A stretch of 14,005 nt of DNA from Burkholderiales bacterium (GTDB lineage Bacteria > Pseudomonadota > Gammaproteobacteria > Burkholderiales > Burkholderiaceae_D), in assembly GCA_016197345.1 (NCBI GenBank), contig JACPVY010000097.1:1-14005 (forward strand). Direction: 5' to 3'. Each line of letters begins with the position of its first letter. The first letter of the stretch is position 1. A model generated the notes under the pieces. The model was not told the origin of the DNA, searched no databases, and saw nothing but the letters and a program-made list of their open reading frames with translations. Both the position numbers and the translations under genes were made by a program. Below are positions 1 to 10,089 of the stretch, one piece after another.

Positions 1-486
1 GAAGAAACCGTGATTCAGCACATTTCACAAAAAAAGACCTTTGAGCTGGGAAATTTCCTCACTCCTGCAATCAGTATCAGTGAAGAAAAATGGAATCAAG
101 CGTTCGAACTCGCTGTTGCTAGCGAGTTGCCGAAAGTGATGTTTGACCGTCATCTCATGCTAGCCACAGAAAAAGTCCGCTTCACAATCGAATACCTGCC
201 GCGCCTGCAACCAGAAAAAGACGTCGCAACTTCCGCCCACTATTCGCTGTGGGAAGGCCCTGTGGTGGTGAAAGCCCATTTCCGCGGCAAAAGCCAAGCT
301 CTGCTACAAATCGGCACCTTGGATGGTGGCCCGTTTAATGTGCAAGTCGATCTACATGATGGCTTACCCGCGATTCAAATCACCTCCTCGCCGCATTACA
401 ACAATGGCTTCAAATATTTTTGGAGCTGGGATGACGAGAAAAAACGCTTTCTACGCCTAGGCTCGGTACAGGAGCAAGGGTGCTAA
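1..486 (+). CDS. 3' part of an unrecognised protein gene (open at left edge)
   Basis: The reading frame is open from base 1 to a TAA at 484-486 and gives about 161 residues. A GTG at position 10 could be a start, but nothing upstream can be inspected, so I treat the gene as 5'-partial. The visible protein is soluble, with no membrane segment or signal peptide. Its C-terminal half looks rich in beta strands (alternating hydrophobic residues in stretches such as GPVVVKAHF and ALLQIGTL) and has many aromatics (FKYFWSWDDE). I recognise no family or catalytic motif. It ends 94 bases before the MoxR gene on the same strand and could be an upstream member of the same ternary-system locus or an unrelated gene. 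A possible promoter in the gap favours separate transcription of the downstream operon. Coding status is likely from length and composition; the function is unknown. Confidence 0.6.
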   Translation, partial: EETVIQHISQKKTFELGNFLTPAISISEEKWNQAFELAVASELPKVMFDRHLMLATEKVRFTIEYLPRLQPEKDVATSAHYSLWEGPVVVKAHFRGKSQALLQIGTLDGGPFNVQVDLHDGLPAIQITSSPHYNNGFKYFWSWDDEKKRFLRLGSVQEQGC

Positions 487-580: not shown

Positions 581-1738
581 ATGAGCCAAGCCAGCCCCGC
601 CACTCCTCATGCCACCGATCGCTTGCGCGATGCGGTGCGTGAAGCCACCGAAGGCTTGATCGAACGCGATCACCTCGCCGAATTAATGCTACTGGCCACC
701 GTTGCGCGCGAGCATGTGTTGGTGATAGGCCCACCCGGCACGGGCAAAAGCGCGGTGGTGCGGCGCATGGCGCAAAGCTTAGGCGGCAATTATTTTGAAT
801 ACTTGCTTGGTCGCTTTACCGAACCCGCCGAAATTTTTGGCGCCGTCAATCTGAATAAATTACGCGAAGGCTTAGTGGAAACCGATACCGCTGGCATGTT
901 GCCGGAAGCCGATATCGCCTTTTTGGATGAAGTCTTTCTCGGTTCGACCGCCATCCTCAATACCCTGCTTGGCTTACTGAATGAACGGCAATTTCGACGG
1001 GGACACACCCACATCCAATGCCCGCTACGGCTCTGCGTGGCCGCCGCCAATGGCTTGCCAGAGGATGAAGGTCTCGCCGCCTTTGCCGATCGTTTCTTGC
1101 TGCATGTCTTTGTTGATGCCGTGCCAGATGCGAAGTTGGAAGACTTATTAGCGGGCGGCTGGCAAGTCGGGCAACACAAAATCTCGCCACGCGCGGAATT
1201 GAATTTGCTGGACGCCATCAACCGCTTGCTGCCCACCATCGACGTGACCGAGGTGCGTCCCGAATTAGCGCTAGCGATACGGCAATTGCGCCAAGCAAAT
1301 ATCCAGCTATCGGATCGACGTATCGTTAAGGCGCAGCAGTTAGTTGCCGCTGCGGCTGCGTTAGCCGGGCGCAACGTGGCGACGCGCGCCGATTTATGGC
1401 CACTGCTCTACGTGATCCCAACGGCGAACGGGCAGCTAAGTGCGCGCGAAACGCTTAGAGATGTGCTGGCGGAAGCGCGTCATCCACTATTGCATAGCGT
1501 GGTCGAAGAAGCGGCGCAACACCCACTGGCGCGCGTAGCACGCTTGCATAGCACGGCGCAACAACTGCTAACGCAACTAGTCGCCGTCGAAAACACTAGC
1601 GCCGATAAGCAACAAACCATACGCAGCAAAATAGAAAGCCTGCTGCGCGAAATTGACGCCAATTTTGAAAGCAGCGATTTGCCTGAGCAATTAGCCGAAC
1701 AACGTAGCGCGCTAATCCAAGCGGCTGGCTTGGCATAA
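581..1738 (+). CDS. MoxR-family AAA+ ATPase of a MoxR-vWA-beta-propeller system
   Basis: This is a 385-residue AAA+ ATPase of the MoxR/RavA branch. Visible motifs are Walker A GPPGTGKS (residues 50-57), Walker B IAFLDE (112-117), the helix-2 insert region ILNTLLGLLNERQF (125-138), sensor 1 at AAAN (Asn157) and the arginine finger in ADRF (Arg171). The C-terminal part (about 190-385) is helical and forms the lid plus an extra helical tail; the stretch at 290-370 could form a coiled coil. MoxR ATPases use ATP hydrolysis to remodel or activate partners, typically von Willebrand A proteins. Here the partner is probably the vWA-like protein encoded two genes downstream. It is the first gene of a tight operon (16 bases to the next ORF). 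The ATG at 581 is chosen because it gives the normal family N-terminus, although no good ribosome-binding site is seen. The family call is secure; the biological role is inferred. Confidence 0.92.
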   Translation: MSQASPATPHATDRLRDAVREATEGLIERDHLAELMLLATVAREHVLVIGPPGTGKSAVVRRMAQSLGGNYFEYLLGRFTEPAEIFGAVNLNKLREGLVETDTAGMLPEADIAFLDEVFLGSTAILNTLLGLLNERQFRRGHTHIQCPLRLCVAAANGLPEDEGLAAFADRFLLHVFVDAVPDAKLEDLLAGGWQVGQHKISPRAELNLLDAINRLLPTIDVTEVRPELALAIRQLRQANIQLSDRRIVKAQQLVAAAAALAGRNVATRADLWPLLYVIPTANGQLSARETLRDVLAEARHPLLHSVVEEAAQHPLARVARLHSTAQQLLTQLVAVENTSADKQQTIRSKIESLLREIDANFESSDLPEQLAEQRSALIQAAGLA

Positions 1739-1754
1739 GCGAGTTAGGCGCACG

Positions 1755-2207
1755 ATGACTCTCTCTGCCAGCCACAGCTTCGCTTGGACGCCGCGTTGGC
1801 AAGCGCGCGACGAGGCATTGACCGCCGCCGGCATGTTGGCGCAAGGGGCCAAGGCTCACGCCTTATTGGCACGCTTGCAGCAGCTCGCTAGCGCTGGCAA
1901 TAGCCTGACGCAATTTCGCGTCTTGTTATGGCGGGACATGTTGCTCTTACTGGGGGCGGCAGATCAATTGCCGTGGCTTGATGGCGCCCGCTATTGCGCG
2001 CCCTGTCCGCAAGCGCCTGCGCTATGGCTACCGACCCATCTCGTGCCAGATATGGCTGGCGATCTGCTACAAACTGCGCTACTCGCCCGCGCGGGCACCA
2101 GCCCGCTCTTGCTATGGCACGATCCACTGCAAATTCTACCGCTCAGCAGCGCACGCCAATTGCACACTGAGATGCTACCGTGGCTTGCCAGCCAACTCGC
2201 GCCATGA
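1755..2207 (+). CDS. Small accessory protein of the MoxR-vWA-beta-propeller operon
   Basis: A 150-residue protein lies between the ATPase and vWA genes, 16 bases after the former and overlapping the latter by ATGA (2204-2207), so translational coupling is likely. It is rich in Leu, Ala and Trp, has a helical first half (about 10-70) and then a motif-like stretch, YCAPCPQAPALWLPTHLVPD (about 84-103), with a Cys-Ala-Pro-Cys pair. A second hydrophobic segment with SPLLLWHDP follows. There is no signal peptide or clear membrane helix. It resembles my recollection of the short domains (bpX series) that accompany MoxR and vWA genes in these ternary systems, possibly the bpX5 type, but I cannot confirm the subtype. 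It probably binds the ATPase or the vWA protein as an adaptor; that is inference. The start ATG at 1755 is preceded by only a weak GTTAGGCG. Confidence 0.8.
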   Translation: MTLSASHSFAWTPRWQARDEALTAAGMLAQGAKAHALLARLQQLASAGNSLTQFRVLLWRDMLLLLGAADQLPWLDGARYCAPCPQAPALWLPTHLVPDMAGDLLQTALLARAGTSPLLLWHDPLQILPLSSARQLHTEMLPWLASQLAP

Positions 2208-4084
2208 GTTCAACAGAAGCGCAGCTCGCGCTCCCTCCCGCACTCCAGCCTTGGCGCGCTTGGCTGGATTTATTCCACCCCGAGGTGGTTGCTGGCATTG
2301 GCCCTATGCTATTGCAACTCGAATCGGCAATCGGGCCTATGAAAAATAGCCTCGCACGCGATAGCCAGCCGCAAGGTGTCGGCAATATTGTGCGCCGTGG
2401 TCGCTACGAGCGGCTGCTACTGACAGAATGGGCCTATCTCGACGCCGTGCCAGACGAATTTCTACGTCGCGCCGCCAGTCAAGAATTACTCTTTTCTGGC
2501 CCCGAAAAAGAAAAAACATCCGGTGCGGGCTTGACGGTGGCGCTATTTGATTGCGGCCCGCGGCAATTAGGCGAACCACGCTTAGCGCAGCTAGCCTTAT
2601 TTATTCTGTTGACTCGCCGCGCACAAGAAAACCGCAGCCAATTCCTGTGGGGCATGCTGCATGAAGCGGGTGAATTACATGAGGATTCATCGCTAAACGG
2701 CTTGCAAGCCTTGATCAAAGGCCGCAGCTTGCGCTATAGCGAAGCGACCGACATCGCGGCGTGGGAACAGAAATTACAAGAATTTGGGACACAACTGCGC
2801 GATTGCTGGCAAATCGGTGGCGCTGCCGACAGTTGCGAAAGCGTGAAACAAGCGAATTGCCGCGTCATGATACGCCTGCCTCTCTCGGCAGATAAATTAC
2901 ATCTGAGCTTCCAGAGAAAACATGCGTTGCGCGAAATGGAGCTTGCCTTACCTAGCGTACAAACAAGTGTGCGAGTTTTTCGTGACCCTTTTTGCAATCC
3001 TGTTCGTAATCCATTAGCAAAACCTAAGACACAAACTAGCACCAGTTCGCCACCACAAATTAAAGCATGCAGAGAAATCCTCTTTTCTAGCGATGGCAAG
3101 AGTTTTGCAATTCGCGATGTTGAGGGCATCTACCATCGCCTATGCATTGCAAAACGACATCGAAGACAAAAACTGGCATTCGCGCCACATAAAAATTTAA
3201 CGCATGCATTAGCGTTAGCGGCGCTAAAAACCAACATCGCGCAGATCAAATTTGAAAGTGGCATGCTGGAATTTTCTGGTTTTGCAGGTCGGCTATTTCG
3301 CGACAAAATCTCGCTCGCCATCCCGCCCGAGGCGCATTTAACCGACGACAAAGATGCGCGCGTTTTACCCCTGTTTTGGCAAACAGCTTACTCTGGCTAC
3401 AGCGCGCTTGAACGCGTGTTTGTACTGGATCATTCCCAGCAATTGCTGATGTGGGAAGCCGACCAACGTGGTGAAGATGCCGAAATCAAATTCTCATTCA
3501 AAGTCGCTGACACTGACATCATCGCCGCCATGATGTTTGATCAGCACTTGATCACTGTCAAAAATTCGAAGCAGGGCATCACACTAGGTGTCATTGCGTA
3601 TTATGGCAATCGCTATCAAACCTTGACAAACACACGTGAACTTATTTGCATGCAGTATTTATTTGGCATGCCGCCCCATCCCTTGAGTAAGGCACATCCG
3701 GCCATGTTTGCGGCGCAAATTTCGCAGCATGAATGGGTAGTTGGCCATGGCCGCCAATTACAGCGTATGCAAGTAGCGAAGCAATGCGTCGTCTTGGGGG
3801 TGACGAATAGCGAGAGTTTTCATCCCGGGATTGCGGAATTGCATGGCAAACCCGTGCAGTGCGGCTTACTGCTGTGGAATAAAGCGAAACACAAAATTCA
3901 ATTTCAACTCAACGCTACATTGATTGATATCTTGCATTTTCCGTATGGTCTAGATCAAGTGGCCTATCATCGCGGCCAACAACGGCTGATCGTCTATAGC
4001 GAAATCAATCAATCGTTAGAAATGTATAAAATCGACAAGGACAAGCCTGTGTTCAAGCTAGGGATAAGCGAACATGAGCAATGA
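2204..4084 (+). CDS. vWA-like plus probable beta-propeller protein of the ternary system
   Basis: A 626-residue protein starting at the ATG that overlaps the previous stop as ATGA. An in-frame GTG at 2180 would add 8 residues but fits less well. The N-terminal 100 residues are helical, with the stretch GRYERLLLTEWAYLDAVPDE (66-85). Residues about 105-250 resemble a von Willebrand A fold with a central hydrophobic strand, VALFDCGPRQLG (112-123). The DxSxS metal-binding (MIDAS) motif is replaced by Asp116-Cys-Gly-Pro, so classical metal-dependent ligand binding is doubtful. A Pro/Ser/Thr-rich linker (about 258-292) leads to roughly 330 residues of repeated beta-strand pattern with aromatic and Asp/Gly turns, consistent with a beta-propeller. 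Such vWA proteins are the usual clients or partners of MoxR ATPases. The protein is predicted cytoplasmic. The 11-base overlap with the next gene supports one operon and a shared complex. Confidence 0.85.
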   Translation: MSSTEAQLALPPALQPWRAWLDLFHPEVVAGIGPMLLQLESAIGPMKNSLARDSQPQGVGNIVRRGRYERLLLTEWAYLDAVPDEFLRRAASQELLFSGPEKEKTSGAGLTVALFDCGPRQLGEPRLAQLALFILLTRRAQENRSQFLWGMLHEAGELHEDSSLNGLQALIKGRSLRYSEATDIAAWEQKLQEFGTQLRDCWQIGGAADSCESVKQANCRVMIRLPLSADKLHLSFQRKHALREMELALPSVQTSVRVFRDPFCNPVRNPLAKPKTQTSTSSPPQIKACREILFSSDGKSFAIRDVEGIYHRLCIAKRHRRQKLAFAPHKNLTHALALAALKTNIAQIKFESGMLEFSGFAGRLFRDKISLAIPPEAHLTDDKDARVLPLFWQTAYSGYSALERVFVLDHSQQLLMWEADQRGEDAEIKFSFKVADTDIIAAMMFDQHLITVKNSKQGITLGVIAYYGNRYQTLTNTRELICMQYLFGMPPHPLSKAHPAMFAAQISQHEWVVGHGRQLQRMQVAKQCVVLGVTNSESFHPGIAELHGKPVQCGLLLWNKAKHKIQFQLNATLIDILHFPYGLDQVAYHRGQQRLIVYSEINQSLEMYKIDKDKPVFKLGISEHEQ

Positions 4085-6974
4085 GATTCGCCGCCCACTC
4101 TATACGGGGACACAACAAGTCCGTGCGCTATGGTTTGATCCGTCTCTGATTGGCGCGCAAGAAGCGCGTCGGCGTGTGCTGCAACATTGGTGCCTAGGTG
4201 CCTCGCTATATGAGGTATTAGACGGTTATCTGTTGCAATGGCCTAGCGCGCGCAACCTACATTGTGCGACGCTAGATGGCCTTGCCCTATGCGAAATTCA
4301 GGTTGAAGGCAAAACCCTGTTGAGTAGCGCGCCTTTGCATGCGGCGGAGTTGCATGAGGTCGCGCGAGGAAGCGTTTGCCTCGTTTTCGGTGCGCAACTG
4401 TGCATCAACCAGCTCGTGGCAAAAATTGATCCTAGCATCTGGCTTGATCTACGCCAAATATCGCTGCATGAGCCTGTCCCCTTCCCTGTCACCCCAACCC
4501 GCATGCAAGATGTGCCAGCGGCGCGTTCGGTACGCGAAATTTTTGGCGTCGGTGACTTCATTTCAGCTGAGCAAGCAGCAAAAAATGCGGACAAAGCCGC
4601 CGCGAACAAACGACAGGCTGACACACTGATGCCGAATGTTCAGACCATCTCGCATGGCCAAGCGTCAAAAACAAAGCAAAATGCGACAAATGGGCGCTAT
4701 GACATCATGGATGTCGCGGCGAGGATGAGCGAAGCAAAAGATAGCCGCTCGTTCGGAGCAGGTGGCGGGCGCGCGCGCCAATCTCAGGCAGAAGAAAAGC
4801 CATCGCTACGCCAAGCATTGCAAAAAACCTTGGGATTTTTTGGCATCGGGCGCAAGAAAGCCCCTGATACAGCGCCACCTAGCACCGGAATAGGGACAGA
4901 TCATTTTAACCAGAAGCAAGCGTCATCGAAAACGGCACAGATTCCCAAAGATAAGATTTCCTATGCCGCGCCACAAGACTCTGGTTGGCAGCAAAAAATC
5001 AGCCAGTGGATGAACAAAGCCACTGGCGCAACACCGCTAGGGTCTTTGTTAGAAGAGCGGCAAGCGCAATATATGCGCAAAATTCAAGCGATGTTTGAAA
5101 ATGGGGACATAGCATCAGCCTTGCTGCATGCAGTCCCACTCAGCGATGGGCGTCACTCACCCGTATCGTCACGAAGCTTTGGTCTGCCGGGTGTGCGGGC
5201 CAATTTAACGATTAGTGCTGGCGGTAGCGCTGGCCATAAATCGGCTATCTATACCAGACATGATGTGAATGAGTATTGGCGTAAGATTTATCGCAACGCC
5301 TATGAACGTGAGGTGCAAGCGGGTAATCTCGACCGCGCCGTATTCATCCTCGCCGAATTACTGCGCTGTGGCGAAGAAGCGGTCGATCTTTTGGAAAAAC
5401 ATCAACGTTTTCAGCAAGCGGCAGAATTGGCCGAGGTGTTGGAATTAAAGGCAGAGCTAGCGATTCGCTTATGGTGTTTGCATGGCGATTTTGCCCGCGC
5501 GGCACTGCTCGCCTTAGTACACGGTCGGTTTGCCGAAGCAGTGGAATTGATGGAGCGCAAAAACCATGCACAAGCCTTAGACTTACGTCGCTTATGGGCG
5601 CAACATTTGGCCGCGAGTGGCGATTTGCTGTTGGCGGTGAATGCCATCTGGCCGCTAGAAGCGGAGCGCGAGCAAGCGCTGCAATGGCTATTACTCGCTG
5701 AGCAAAGTGGTGGTTTGATGACTGCTTTGGCGCTGCTGCGCAGGCTGCAATTGCAACCAGAAAGCCTAGCGCAATCTGAAGCAGCCTTACAAAGCATTGC
5801 GTGGCGACAAGATGAAATTGGGCAGCAACAACGCGCCCGCATCGTGCAAGAAATGCTTCCCTTCTTCCAACACAATGCGGCCACCAAAAATTGGACTGCC
5901 GCCTTGTTACCGGCATTAATCGCCGACCGCATTGCTGGGCATAACAGCTTATCGAATAAAGATTTGGATCAATTACTGCATGCTGCGGGTAATCATGTGC
6001 TGCGCGAAGACTTGCCCAAGTTCAAGCTTGACAGCGAGCGAAAAGCGAGCAGCGCGGAATTTACATTTACCTGCGAAGAAATGGGTTTGCTCCACATTTA
6101 TGATGCCTGCCGTTTGCCAGATCACGAATATTTATTAGCGCTAGGCGAAGCTGGGGTGATCAAGGTCAACCGTCATGGCAAGCGCCTAGCGCATTACCCC
6201 TTGCCCGCGCACGAACTGGTGCCCGCCCGCAATGGCATGAGCGCACTAGGGCTTGCCTTACGCGATAGCTGCGTGCATGTCGGCAAAATTGATCTGTTGC
6301 GTGGCAAGGTGAGCGACTGGCAAACGCTAGCATGCCAATTTTGGGCAAAAGATTTCGATGGCCAGATTTGGGATGTGGTGCTGAATAATCAATTGTTGTC
6401 ACTCAACACCCACGAAGCGCAATTGACGACGGTGTGGAAGGTGGCGGATTTGCCCGGTCGCATTCTCGAATTCAACACTGACAGCAGCTATTTGAGCTTC
6501 ACGCTAGACGACGATATCAGTCATCACTTTTGGCGCTATACATTACCAGAGCGGCGCTTGCTCAATCGCGATGCAGTGCCGGAACCCACCGTGAAGGTTT
6601 GGCTGCGCAAGATGTCAGCGCATCGTGTCAAGCCTGTCGATTTTATGCTACGTAAGTCCGATGACAACACGACGCTGCAAATTGATCTGGGAATTCGTTA
6701 CCATCAAATCGATATCGAACTGGGCGCCATCATCGCCGCGCCGACAATACACTTCACCGACCAGACACTCTGCGTTGTGAGCCGCACGCAAGAATCTCAT
6801 CGATGCCAATTATTCGATATGAGTGTGTCGAAAATTTGCAGCTTATCGATTACCGACGCCGAATACACGCGAACCCGCATGCAGGATGGCCGCCTACTCG
6901 TTTTTGATCGCAATGGCCGGCTGCTAGATTTCGATATCGCGGAGCGCTCGCTCCATCACCTCTGCTTGAATTAA
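4074..6974 (+). CDS. Large bpX6-like, helical-repeat and beta-propeller protein of the ternary system
   Basis: A 966-residue protein. Its ATG overlaps the end of the preceding gene by 11 bases and is preceded by the purine-rich AGGGATAAG. Residues 1-140 form a compact domain beginning RRPLYTGTQQVRALWFDP, which I recognise as resembling the N-terminal bpX6-type domain of MoxR-vWA-beta-propeller systems. Residues about 155-330 are a low-complexity Ala/Lys/Gln/Ser linker, probably disordered. Residues about 335-625 are strongly helical with a repeated pattern (NLDRAVFILAELL, GDFARAALLALVHGRF, AEAVELMERK), suggesting TPR/HEAT-like repeats. Residues about 655-966 return to beta-rich sequence with Asp/Gly turns, consistent with a WD-like propeller. 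No signal peptide or membrane helix is seen. It is the last gene of the operon and stops just before a strong terminator. It probably serves as scaffold or substrate recogniser. Domain identities are by eye. Confidence 0.85.
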   Translation: MSNEIRRPLYTGTQQVRALWFDPSLIGAQEARRRVLQHWCLGASLYEVLDGYLLQWPSARNLHCATLDGLALCEIQVEGKTLLSSAPLHAAELHEVARGSVCLVFGAQLCINQLVAKIDPSIWLDLRQISLHEPVPFPVTPTRMQDVPAARSVREIFGVGDFISAEQAAKNADKAAANKRQADTLMPNVQTISHGQASKTKQNATNGRYDIMDVAARMSEAKDSRSFGAGGGRARQSQAEEKPSLRQALQKTLGFFGIGRKKAPDTAPPSTGIGTDHFNQKQASSKTAQIPKDKISYAAPQDSGWQQKISQWMNKATGATPLGSLLEERQAQYMRKIQAMFENGDIASALLHAVPLSDGRHSPVSSRSFGLPGVRANLTISAGGSAGHKSAIYTRHDVNEYWRKIYRNAYEREVQAGNLDRAVFILAELLRCGEEAVDLLEKHQRFQQAAELAEVLELKAELAIRLWCLHGDFARAALLALVHGRFAEAVELMERKNHAQALDLRRLWAQHLAASGDLLLAVNAIWPLEAEREQALQWLLLAEQSGGLMTALALLRRLQLQPESLAQSEAALQSIAWRQDEIGQQQRARIVQEMLPFFQHNAATKNWTAALLPALIADRIAGHNSLSNKDLDQLLHAAGNHVLREDLPKFKLDSERKASSAEFTFTCEEMGLLHIYDACRLPDHEYLLALGEAGVIKVNRHGKRLAHYPLPAHELVPARNGMSALGLALRDSCVHVGKIDLLRGKVSDWQTLACQFWAKDFDGQIWDVVLNNQLLSLNTHEAQLTTVWKVADLPGRILEFNTDSSYLSFTLDDDISHHFWRYTLPERRLLNRDAVPEPTVKVWLRKMSAHRVKPVDFMLRKSDDNTTLQIDLGIRYHQIDIELGAIIAAPTIHFTDQTLCVVSRTQESHRCQLFDMSVSKICSLSITDAEYTRTRMQDGRLLVFDRNGRLLDFDIAERSLHHLCLN

Positions 6975-7001
6975 GGTGACGCGCAGATTGTTTGGACGAA
7001 A

Positions 7002-7029
7002 AAAAACCCGGCATAACAACCGGGTTTTT
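7002..7029. terminator. Bidirectional Rho-independent terminator between convergent genes
   Basis: A perfect inverted repeat has arms AAAAACCCGG (7002-7011) and CCGGGTTTTT (7020-7029) and an 8-base loop. The A/T ends mean that transcripts from either strand form a GC stem followed by a U tract. It lies 27 bases after the stop of the 966-residue gene (+) and 15 bases past the stop of the cytochrome gene (-), so it terminates both. Confidence 0.92.
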
Positions 7030-7044
7030 CTTGGTTAGCCTGAA

Positions 7045-7971
7045 TTACTTGGCAGCGGCAGCCATGTAATCAACTGCTGCTTTGACTTCGTCGTCAGATG
7101 CAGTCGAACCACCTTTAGCAGGCATCATGCCAGCTTTGCCTTGGAAGCCTTTCAAAGCATGTTCGTACAATGCTGGTTTGCCAGCCTTGATGCGATCAGC
7201 CCAAGCTGCTTTGTCGCCAAATTTTGGCGCACCAGCGACGCCTGCAGCGTGGCAAGCTTGGCAGGTTGCGTCATAGATTTTCTTACCATCTACAGCAGCC
7301 GCTTTTGCTGGCTCAGCAGCGGCGCTGGCACTAGCCGATGCAGCAGCAGGAGCGCTAGCGGCTGGTGCACTAGCAGCGGCGGCTGGGGCAGAGGCTTCTG
7401 CCGATGCGGAAGCTGCTGCAGCAGCGGCTGGCGCAGCTTTCACTTCAGGTTCTTTGAATTTCGCGCCAGATTGATTCGCCATGAAGACCACGGCACGCGC
7501 TACTTCAACATCGTCCAGATCAGCATTACCACCTTTTGCTGGCATGGCGCGCAAACCTTCGATGGCATGCTTGAGCACGGTGTCATAGCCTTGTGCAATA
7601 CGTGCCGACCATGCAGCCGCATCACCCACTTTTGGCGAACCAGCAGCGCCAGTCGCATGGCAAGCTTGGCAAGTTGCTTTATAAACTGCTTCGCCAGATT
7701 GCAGAACTTTCGGGCCATTCACGTCTTTAAACGTAAAACCTTGATCAGCAACAGGCTTGATACGATCCGTCAGCGCGTTCACGGCGGCGGCTTCGGCAGC
7801 GGTATTGCCTTTTTCCACCTCGGTGCCTGCACCAACTAATTTTTCAGATGTCACATATTGCACTAGCAATATGATAATGATGATGGGAACTACGAATGCA
7901 GCAATCACCGCAACGATGAGTTGTTTTGGCGTTTTAATGGCTGTTTCGTGCTCGTTGTGTGCGTCGCTCAT
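7045..7971 (-). CDS. Membrane-anchored tandem dihaem cytochrome c (c5-type)
   Basis: A 308-residue c-type cytochrome. A short cytoplasmic N-terminus precedes one uncleaved membrane helix (about 18-40, with PIIIIILLVQYV), placing the rest in the periplasm. Two class I haem domains follow, each with CQACH: Cys101/Cys104/His105 and Cys237/Cys240/His241. Each has a following MPAKGG that supplies the axial methionine (Met143 in the first domain, Met282 or Met283 in the second). A 48-residue Ala/Ser/Pro/Glu linker (about 179-226) joins the domains. Cytochromes of this type pass electrons between quinol or bc1 complexes and terminal oxidases. The ATG at 7971 is chosen over an in-frame upstream ATG at 8052 because it has GAGGAAA directly upstream and the extra 27 residues look non-native. 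The gene stands alone, with its own promoter and a shared terminator. The family is certain; the exact electron partners are not visible. Confidence 0.93.
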   Translation of the reverse strand: MSDAHNEHETAIKTPKQLIVAVIAAFVVPIIIIILLVQYVTSEKLVGAGTEVEKGNTAAEAAAVNALTDRIKPVADQGFTFKDVNGPKVLQSGEAVYKATCQACHATGAAGSPKVGDAAAWSARIAQGYDTVLKHAIEGLRAMPAKGGNADLDDVEVARAVVFMANQSGAKFKEPEVKAAPAAAAAASASAEASAPAAAASAPAASAPAAASASASAAAEPAKAAAVDGKKIYDATCQACHAAGVAGAPKFGDKAAWADRIKAGKPALYEHALKGFQGKAGMMPAKGGSTASDDEVKAAVDYMAAAAK

Positions 7972-8182: not shown

Positions 8183-8258
8183 GCGGCTGTAGCTCAGTGG
8201 ATAGAGTATTGGCCTCCGAAGCCAAGGGTCGTGGGTTCGATCCCCGCCAGCCGCACCA
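8183..8258 (+). tRNA. tRNA-Arg, anticodon CCG, CCA encoded
   Basis: A complete cloverleaf can be folded by eye. The acceptor arms are GCGGCTG (8183-8189) and CAGCCGC (8248-8254), with discriminator A at 8255 and encoded CCA at 8256-8258. The D arm contains AGCTCAGT-GGAT. The anticodon stem TTGGC/GCCAA (8209-8213 with 8221-8225) encloses the loop CTCCGAA, with anticodon CCG at 8216-8218. The T arm is GTGGG-TTCGATC-CCCGC (8231-8247). It decodes CGG arginine codons. It stands alone, divergent from the cytochrome gene. tRNA-Arg genes are common integration targets, but I see no integrase or duplicated 3' end in this window. Confidence 0.97.
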
Positions 8259-9366: not shown

Positions 9367-10080
9367 CTAATTCTGTTGTGTCCTAAACCTTATTATAAGG
9401 TCAGTCCCCATTTCTCGTCTAATCTTCTGCTGATTCCATAACATATGCAAATGTGCCAATGCCTCACCAATGGCAAAATTGAATTGATGCACATCTAATT
9501 CACGTCGAAACATTTGAGGGACAACATCGGCAGCGGTTTGTCCCGTGACACACATCTGCTCCACCTCTGCTAAACGCTGTGCATGATGTTCACGCAATTG
9601 CGCAATCCGCGCATGCAAGCCAATAAATGGTTTGCCATGAGACGGTAAAACCAAAGTATCTTCGGGCAAATTGTCAAAATAATGCAGCGAATCGAGATAT
9701 AACTGTAATGGATTAGCTTCTGGCTCTAACGCAAATACCGAAATATTAGTCGATATACGGGGTAATACCATATCCCCTGAAATAAGCATTTTCAAAGCTT
9801 CACAATATAGCGCGACATGTTCTGGCGAGTGTCCAAAACCGCAGATAGTGCGCCAAACATATTGCTGCCAAGCTTGGCGTGTGAGGTCACGATCGATGCC
9901 GCAATCAACCGCTACCCAAGCATCGCCATCGCGCAATAGCCATAAATTGATGTGATTGAGCGCAAATGGTAAAGGCATGCGCAACCAAGCGACGGCCTCG
10001 TTGAGCATGAAGACCTCGCCTGTCGCTGGCAAAGTTTCGCCCAACGGATAATGTAATTGTGCTTCACCTTGTAGATTCAT
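9367..10080 (-). CDS. Metallo-beta-lactamase-fold hydrolase with internal in-frame deletion
   Basis: A 237-residue protein from the metallo-hydrolase family often found beside liuR/liuA in Burkholderiales. The N-terminal strands (NHINLWLLRDG, VAVDCG at 56-61) and the C-terminal part are intact: GFGHSPEH with His84, SGD with Asp103, LPSHG with His148, and a helical C-terminal domain. The segment that should hold HxHxDH is absent: residue 74 in WQQYV is followed at once by WRTICGFGH. From my knowledge of the family (about 340 residues), roughly 100 residues are missing, with the junction near 9850-9860. Four metal ligands are therefore lost and the protein is probably inactive, although the frame is open. 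The start at 10080 is preferred over 10089 because GAGGAA (10095-10090) is 9 bases upstream of it and abuts the earlier ATG. The gene is divergent from liuR and shares its operator region. Confidence 0.8.
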   Translation of the reverse strand: MNLQGEAQLHYPLGETLPATGEVFMLNEAVAWLRMPLPFALNHINLWLLRDGDAWVAVDCGIDRDLTRQAWQQYVWRTICGFGHSPEHVALYCEALKMLISGDMVLPRISTNISVFALEPEANPLQLYLDSLHYFDNLPEDTLVLPSHGKPFIGLHARIAQLREHHAQRLAEVEQMCVTGQTAADVVPQMFRRELDVHQFNFAIGEALAHLHMLWNQQKIRREMGTDLIIRFRTQQN

Positions 10081-10089
10081 AGTTCCCAT

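Follow-up and report, generated by a model that had tools for sequence, protein, structure and literature searches.

Closest described systems

The beta-propeller class of MoxR-vWA (von Willebrand factor A) ternary systems was described by Kaur et al. in 2020 (PMC7159879) and called enigmatic because it carries no conventional effector. In their account divergent vWA domains, propeller fusions and, often, a P-loop of the form GXXXTAKS characterise both the FtsH and the beta-propeller groups, and the variable N-terminal region of the third component, with its membrane segment, is proposed to be the effector; neither bpX5 nor bpX6 is named in the main text. A report from 2022 (PMC9677677) gives ravA, bpX5, '6ND4' and bpX6 as clade-specific genes of plasticity region RGP_32 in Pseudomonas syringae clade 2b-a. 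Other ternary systems are treated in PMC8195603 and PMC10907252, and RavA-ViaA, which pairs RavA with a vWA partner, targets phospholipids at the inner membrane (PMC9489729). Here we analyze a locus at positions 581-6974 of contig JACPVY010000097.1 (assembly GCA_016197345.1, a Burkholderiales bacterium) as a candidate member of the beta-propeller class with four components, of the bpX5/bpX6 type. The window is the whole contig of 14,005 bases, and the source genome is 68% complete and divided into 675 contigs.

The class itself was already known. What is added is a four-gene core, a third protein that resembles the inactive vWA family ivWA by profile, two speeds of evolution within the operon, and sporadic single-copy occurrence outside defence islands. 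The original prediction, made from the window alone, had assigned the locus to a published class with no tested activity, and no tested activity of the bpX5/bpX6 propeller class was found in the openly licensed literature.

Organisation of the operon

The operon and its parts are as follows, in window coordinates.

581-1738, forward strand: gene 1, MoxR-clade AAA+ ATPase of 385 amino acids (from Pfam bpMoxR, the nearest PDB structure RavA and motif counts)
1755-2207, forward strand: gene 2, bpX5 protein of 150 amino acids (from Pfam and linkage to genes 1, 3 and 4 in 76 of 80 loci)
2204-4084, forward strand: gene 3, 626 amino acids from the ATG of the ATGA overlap, putatively an ivWA-like N-terminal region followed by a beta-propeller
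2204-2998, forward strand: gene 3 residues 1-265, helical segment, conserved motif (58-97) and Rossmann-like half sheet (from secondary structure, residue counts and the ivWA match)
3056-4063, forward strand: gene 3 residues 285-620, beta-propeller with 27 predicted strands (about seven blades)
4074-6974, forward strand: gene 4, 966 amino acids, with bpX6 domain, linker, alpha-solenoid and beta-propeller (from Pfam and AlphaFold2)
4074-4553, forward strand: gene 4 residues 1-160, bpX6 domain (model confident for about 11-125)
4554-4982, forward strand: gene 4 residues 161-303, low-confidence linker (predicted local distance difference test score, pLDDT, below 50 for 184-303)
4983-6008, forward strand: gene 4 residues 304-645, alpha-solenoid (AlphaFold2 model)
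6051-6971, forward strand: gene 4 residues 660-966, beta-propeller with 29 predicted strands (about seven blades)
7002-7029, forward strand: intrinsic terminator stem of 10 pairs, common to the operon and the convergent cytochrome gene

The coordinates of the four packed genes, the 16-base gap between genes 1 and 2, the ATGA overlap of genes 2 and 3 and the 11-base overlap of genes 3 and 4 were exactly as originally predicted, and so was a strong terminator at the operon end. When region 6992-7036 was folded and compared with its own shuffles it gave -17.5 kcal/mol (z -4.3), a value equalled by none of 200. A simple terminator scan did not list the 7002-7029 stem, probably as the T tract is taken up by A/T pairs within it.

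Protein 1 is the MoxR ATPase that had been called beforehand. It matches Pfam bpMoxR with 293 bits (cut-off 27), as well as AAA_5 and AAA_lid_8, and has a RavA-like AAA+ module, with Walker A GPPGTGKS and Walker B FLDEVF, followed by around 100 further residues. RavA entries were the nearest solved structures in a PDB sequence search (E 7e-41), the match being limited to RavA residues 10-280 of 498-500, with the RavA C-terminal region left unmatched by the 385-residue protein. Used alone the bpMoxR cut-off is loose, being passed by 228 of 300 genomes of the order and by 12 of 14 controls; scores of 295-306 bits were reached in the window and three other genomes, and the next best among the 300 was 227. 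The four genomes above 290 bits are exactly the four, among 399 of the order, with bpX6 over its cut-off. In 80 aligned ATPase rows the P-loop reads GPPGTAKS in 73, GEPGTAKS in one and GPPGTGKS in five (the window being counted twice in these, as WIN and L006), and one row was unread. The class form GXXXTAKS is present in 74 of the 80, and the canonical GPPGTGKS of the window is an exception that is not decisive, as the class is described as having the motif 'often'.

Protein 2 matches bpX5 with 124 bits (cut-off 27). The small accessory protein of the original prediction is thus present, yet it is a core part of the system and not an accessory one. Protein 4, foreseen as a bpX6-like, helical and propeller protein of 966 residues, matches bpX6 with 125 bits (cut-off 27) at residues 5-160, and solenoid and propeller are visible in its AlphaFold2 model (mean pLDDT 77). 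In a simple hydropathy test the protein 4 of the window has no hydrophobic segment (best 19-residue mean 1.52), whereas Pseudomonas relatives have a membrane segment in this protein. Across 75 aligned protein 4 sequences a hydrophobic segment in the linker (mean at least 2.0 over 19 residues) was found in 30, nearly all from Pseudomonas and Oxalobacteraceae. A PDB sequence search with the protein 4 profile gave nothing meaningful (best E 0.15). Comparison of bpX5, bpX6 and the other domains with each other revealed no mutual profile similarity, the best pair being the two propellers (P 11%). The last three proteins did not scatter over unrelated families, with bpMoxR, bpX5 and bpX6 all assigned by profile.

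With subsystem 4 of Kaur et al. (PMC7159879) the locus shares an ATPase, a protein with a C-terminal propeller, a protein of bpX domain, helical repeat and propeller, and the lack of a conventional effector. It differs in having a core of four genes, a protein 3 that falls in no Pfam family, and two propellers of full size (27 and 29 strands), as against about four blades in the vWA protein of that paper; the window also has a canonical P-loop and no membrane segment, the paper giving such a segment for the class and not as a strict rule. Region RGP_32 of P. syringae holds the same four genes in the same order, the third named from a Foldseek match to PDB 6ND4, an entry also among the fold matches of protein 3 (rank 23). 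However, in the portion of that text available (PMC9677677) the genes are only listed and no system is recognised. The FtsH ternary systems (subsystem 3 of Kaur et al., with ivWA, PF19997) would share the ivWA-like N-terminal segment of protein 3, as judged by profile, although the window locus has no FtsH component and no ubiquitin-like or caspase genes. RavA-ViaA of Escherichia coli provides the closest solved ATPase and combines a MoxR ATPase with a vWA-type partner, as the window locus may do; it differs in that only RavA 10-280 is matched, that protein 3 has no detectable CoxE or VWA similarity, and that the window locus encodes two extra proteins. Against PADLOC-DB 2.0.0, proteins 2-4 matched no model at E 1 and protein 1 gave weak ATPase matches (best 25 bits).

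Conservation and distribution of the four-gene core

Relatives were gathered by a scan of public genome contigs for the gene 3 family with one pattern, which is not a census, and the 80 loci used are the best of 88 confirmed. All four genes occur in order in 76 of them, and the remaining four (L020, L031, L049 and L060) are cut by contig ends. Order was judged by gene ends, as five of the 76 loci have mechanical open reading frame (ORF) starts placed too far upstream, which would change the apparent order. The conserved core comprises four genes, bpX5 included, and the bpX5/bpX6 type forms a constant unit of four genes in several phyla, having been found across Pseudomonadota, Myxococcota, Acidobacteriota, Armatimonadota and Melainabacteria. 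The only operon breaks seen are in seven Myxococcota loci (L048, L054, L056, L058, L061, L067 and L075), in which 1.7-4.9 kb with other genes separate gene 1 from gene 2 and genes 2-4 stay adjacent. Occurrence is sporadic. A bpX5 match above the cut-off was obtained for 2 of 148 relatives, and bpX6 passed its own threshold in 4 of 399 genomes sampled from the order, with the genome of the window counted both times. In the protein 4 tree the window groups with Undibacterium (98*) within Oxalobacteraceae.

One record stands apart in that tree. The bpX6 protein of L068 (BNCN01000005.1, titled Comamonas sp. KCTC 72670) lies inside Myxococcus with full support, and the flanking genes of this locus are 75-87% identical to those of the Myxococcus loci L062 and L063, with two of these genes equally distant from the operon. 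Because both tree position and flanks are Myxococcus-like, the record looks mislabelled.

No constant fifth gene was found at a fixed place when 949 flanking ORFs from 79 loci were clustered. The largest cluster, a candidate for such a gene, covers 24 loci and was rejected, as it consists of two-component kinases and regulators that are scattered in position (12 of 36 members viewed); smaller clusters are at the level of the genus. With no constant flanking gene and no CoxE match, an ordinary MoxR/CoxE-type maturation locus is unsupported. Pfam families of the flanks belong to ordinary metabolism and regulation, for example LysR regulators and transporters, and no transposase or integrase is among the 25 listed of 114 families.

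A defence-island location was examined with the five nearest ORFs per locus in 28 relatives (134 proteins, E 1e-10; L018 contributed only two ORFs, and the set excludes four long ORFs as well as the two loci L017 and L064). The flanks matched 31 PADLOC families, and among the 25 listed nearly all had one protein each and around 17 were PD-T4-6 kinase models. As a control, 134 ORFs were taken from arbitrary places in these 28 genomes and matched 8 families. Counted by system name the flanks gave about 8 against 3, and by protein probably at most 10 against about 6, which is no clear enrichment, and the location was rejected.

The N-terminal region of protein 3

Protein 3 matches no Pfam family even at E 1, and none in NCBIfam or PADLOC. 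None of 84 homologues has a precomputed Pfam domain, and 56 of them scanned singly gave stray weak Pfam matches only, one being to ivWA (E 0.066, weak). The original prediction had described a degenerate vWA with a propeller. The propeller stands: those of proteins 3 and 4 are both supported by structure prediction and fold search, the model of protein 3 has a mean pLDDT of 87, and its fold matches were filled by propellers. The vWA part reduces to a profile similarity to ivWA in the segment that precedes the fold.

An ivWA set of nine sequences, from 9 of 28 genomes searched, was compared with protein 3 using hhalign. Residues 1-265 gave P 79% (E 1.7e-5) and residues 1-105 gave P 82% (E 1.1e-5), aligned at 43-99. 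CoxE against VWA_2, the positive control, reached P 97%, and bpX5, bpX6, the gene 3 propeller and the ATPase C-terminus as negative controls stayed at or below 0.2% against ivWA. Speaking against the ivWA assignment, residues 105-265, which make up the Rossmann-like part, gave only 0.2% on their own. Protein 3 also had no profile match to 32 CoxE or 24 VWA_2 sequences of the ordinary vWA kind; this miss weighs little against a vWA domain, since ivWA itself misses both (0.5 and 2.6%). Within the 84 homologues, D116, which ends strand 1, is kept in 83, G118, at the position of the would-be serine of the metal ion-dependent adhesion site (MIDAS), in 84, and T or S at position 175 in 80. The placement of D116, G118 and position 175 in a MIDAS is our own reading of the topology. 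Taken together, the N-terminal region of protein 3 appears ivWA-like by the profile of the segment ahead of strand 1, probably with a degenerate metal site and with the vWA fold itself unproven. An unnamed family would in this way be linked to the inactive vWA of FtsH systems.

Wider searches added little. The protein 3 profile gave weak WD40 matches only in a PDB sequence search (best E 0.01), a search for remoter relatives yielded one new protein only, and an ivWA scan of 398 Pseudomonadota genomes returned two weak matches, none over the cut-off.

Two speeds of evolution and covariation of the propellers

Domain identities were compared over 70 loci, giving 2415 pairs (2346 for the protein 4 propeller). 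The propeller of protein 3 shows lower identity than the N-terminal domain of the same protein in 2413 pairs, than the solenoid in 2413 and than bpX6 in 2400; it is also below the protein 4 propeller in 2292 of the 2346. Among the 518 pairs whose ATPases are at least 75% identical, mean identity is 56% for bpX6 as against 47 and 40% for the propellers, and the linker alone is as variable as the protein 3 propeller or more (34 against 40%). The protein 3 propeller is the fastest-evolving folded part of the system.

The same two speeds are seen at shared sites. In all 16 locus pairs with at least four shared flanking genes the identity of the ATPase is no lower than that of the flanks, and the protein 3 propeller is below the flanks in 13, being equal or above in L032/L082, L044/L053 and L062/L063. 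At one Pseudomonas site in three strains the ratio of nonsynonymous to synonymous substitution rates (dN/dS) is 0.030-0.039 for gene 1 and 0.010-0.064 for four flanking genes, as compared with 0.171-0.201 for gene 2, 0.136-0.204 for gene 3 and 0.183-0.222 for gene 4. The dS itself is raised for gene 3, and for gene 4 in two of the three pairs, a sign that divergent alleles may have been imported.

Covariation was tested for 14 domain pairs in 32 non-overlapping locus pairs, controlling for the mean of the other six domains. The propeller pair came first (rank r 0.52, permutation p 0.0014), followed by the protein 3 N-terminal domain with bpX6 (0.42, p 0.007) and the ATPase C-terminus with bpX5 (0.40, p 0.013). 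Over the 518 pairs, which are related and non-independent, the covariation is 0.73 for the propeller pair and 0.36 for the two halves of protein 3. This pattern agrees with the conjecture of Kaur et al. that the propellers contact each other.

Mosaic alleles are seen in the Pseudomonas pair L026/L050, in which the protein 4 propeller is 98% identical, bpX6 75% and the protein 3 propeller 74%, at a flank median of 96%. Recombination inside the operon is suggested by this pair.

Gene 3 is repeated in some Massilia loci. Massilia rubra (L018) has five copies, one of 389 amino acids, next to a single bpX5 gene; two copies each occur in M. frigida (L016) and M. mucilaginosa (L079); and a contig of M. 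genomosp. 1 encodes three related proteins. Some array copies share 66-76% identity in the N-terminal domain and 33-36% in the propeller, and the L079 array shows no such contrast (42.5 vs 39.0%). The arrays were rejected as proof of diversification, since copies with 74-76% N-terminal and 33-36% propeller identity are at the low end of single-copy pairs and not outside them: at like N-terminal identity single-copy propellers have a mean of 46%, a 5th percentile of 34.5% and a minimum of 26%, in a set that holds the window and one Janthinobacterium locus twice.

Proposed mechanism and alternative explanations

From the parts, their four-gene linkage, the two-speed evolution and the covariation of the propellers we favour, at about even confidence, the reading that these genes form a MoxR-vWA-beta-propeller system with four components, of the bpX5/bpX6 type, in which a motor remodels a recognition scaffold, with a lean towards surveillance or conflict. 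The gene 3 arrays next to one bpX5 gene in Massilia, RavA as the nearest solved relative of the ATPase, and the agreement of the high-scoring bpMoxR genomes with the bpX6 genomes also count in its favour. The RavA-like ATPase would form a ring and dock, through bpX5 as a putative adaptor, on the end of protein 3 that holds the inactive vWA. The recognition scaffold would consist of the fast propeller of protein 3 and, from protein 4, the propeller and the solenoid. Target binding would lead to ATP hydrolysis that remodels the scaffold, in some lineages perhaps at the membrane via the hydrophobic helix of the protein 4 linker, and the target may then be contained or inactivated, or the envelope changed. 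If the two-speed pattern is functional, the protein 3 propeller is the part to swap and the ATPase the part to break.

Several observations weigh against this reading. As predicted from the outset, no obvious effector is encoded, and no catalytic effector domain was seen in the operon. Genes 2-4 may be under relaxed or diversifying evolution, with dN/dS far below 1 and diversifying selection not shown, and propellers are generally fast-evolving. When the ATPase alone is used as control, the propeller pair reaches 0.74 and the two halves of protein 3 reach 0.71, and the L026/L050 propellers (98 vs 74%) speak against tight coupling. All 31 carrier genomes searched have exactly one bpX5. Protein 3 had no phage match, and one plasmid record was matched over 22% of the protein length. 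The protein 4 tree (74 rows) tracks phyla, with 6 changes for 5 groups, where the minimum is 4 and the shuffled mean 25. One copy per genome, phylum-wise descent, few phage or plasmid matches and flanks that are not rich in PADLOC families are not what a mobile defence system usually shows.

A stress or assembly machine would account almost equally well for the single copy, the ordinary neighbourhood and the descent by phylum. Such a non-immune, RavA-ViaA-like chaperone would remodel a respiratory, envelope or other complex, its fast propellers tracking lineage-specific clients, and we consider it a tentative but real possibility. RavA being the nearest solved relative of the ATPase, the single bpX5 in each carrier genome, neighbours such as LysR regulators and transporters, a tree mostly by phylum and purifying selection throughout are all in its favour, as are the action of RavA-ViaA at the inner membrane (PMC9489729) and the hydrophobic linker segment in 30 of 75 protein 4 relatives. 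It is less easily reconciled with the very patchy presence of bpX5 (2/148) and bpX6 (4/399), and an assembly factor should accompany its client, yet no client gene is conserved beside the operon. Moreover, the P. syringae copy is located in a genome plasticity region (PMC9677677), and the RavA match ends at residue 280 of 498-500.

The idea of Kaur et al. that the variable N-terminal region with a membrane segment is an effector (PMC7159879) would lead to scaffolded cell suicide or containment, in which the motor releases the bpX6 end of protein 4 to act as a non-enzymatic membrane effector. The order of bpX6 and then linker, with a hydrophobic segment in those 30 of 75 relatives, is consistent with it; however, bpX6 is more conserved than both propellers (56 vs 47 and 40%) and is not the most variable part, and protein 4 of the window lacks the segment (best mean 1.52), which makes this explanation unlikely. 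A relic or non-functional locus, to which sporadic presence and a P-loop other than the class-usual GPPGTAKS could point, is very improbable given four intact frames, conserved Walker motifs and an ATPase strongly constrained in relatives.

Neighbouring genes

Outside the operon the window contains the following features.

1-486, forward strand: end of a reading frame with no Pfam family, cut by the contig start
7045-8052, reverse strand: two-haem cytochrome c gene (Pfam), convergent, its stop (7045) adjoining the terminator
8183-8258, forward strand: tRNA-Arg(CCG)
9367-10089, reverse strand: metallo-beta-lactamase-fold gene (Pfam Lactamase_B)

Of 11 relatives compared, each with about 1.5 kb of flank, 10 resemble the window across the cytochrome region, with similarity starting at 7040-7062 and going no further into the operon; in 7 of those 10 it extends through the tRNA-Arg gene. 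The similarity of this conserved cytochrome/tRNA-Arg block to relatives ends at 7040-7062, beside the operon terminator. The Lactamase_B match of the gene at 9367-10089 spans only profile positions 127-196 of 196, and because the N-terminal part of the domain is missing, this gene may be broken or internally shortened.

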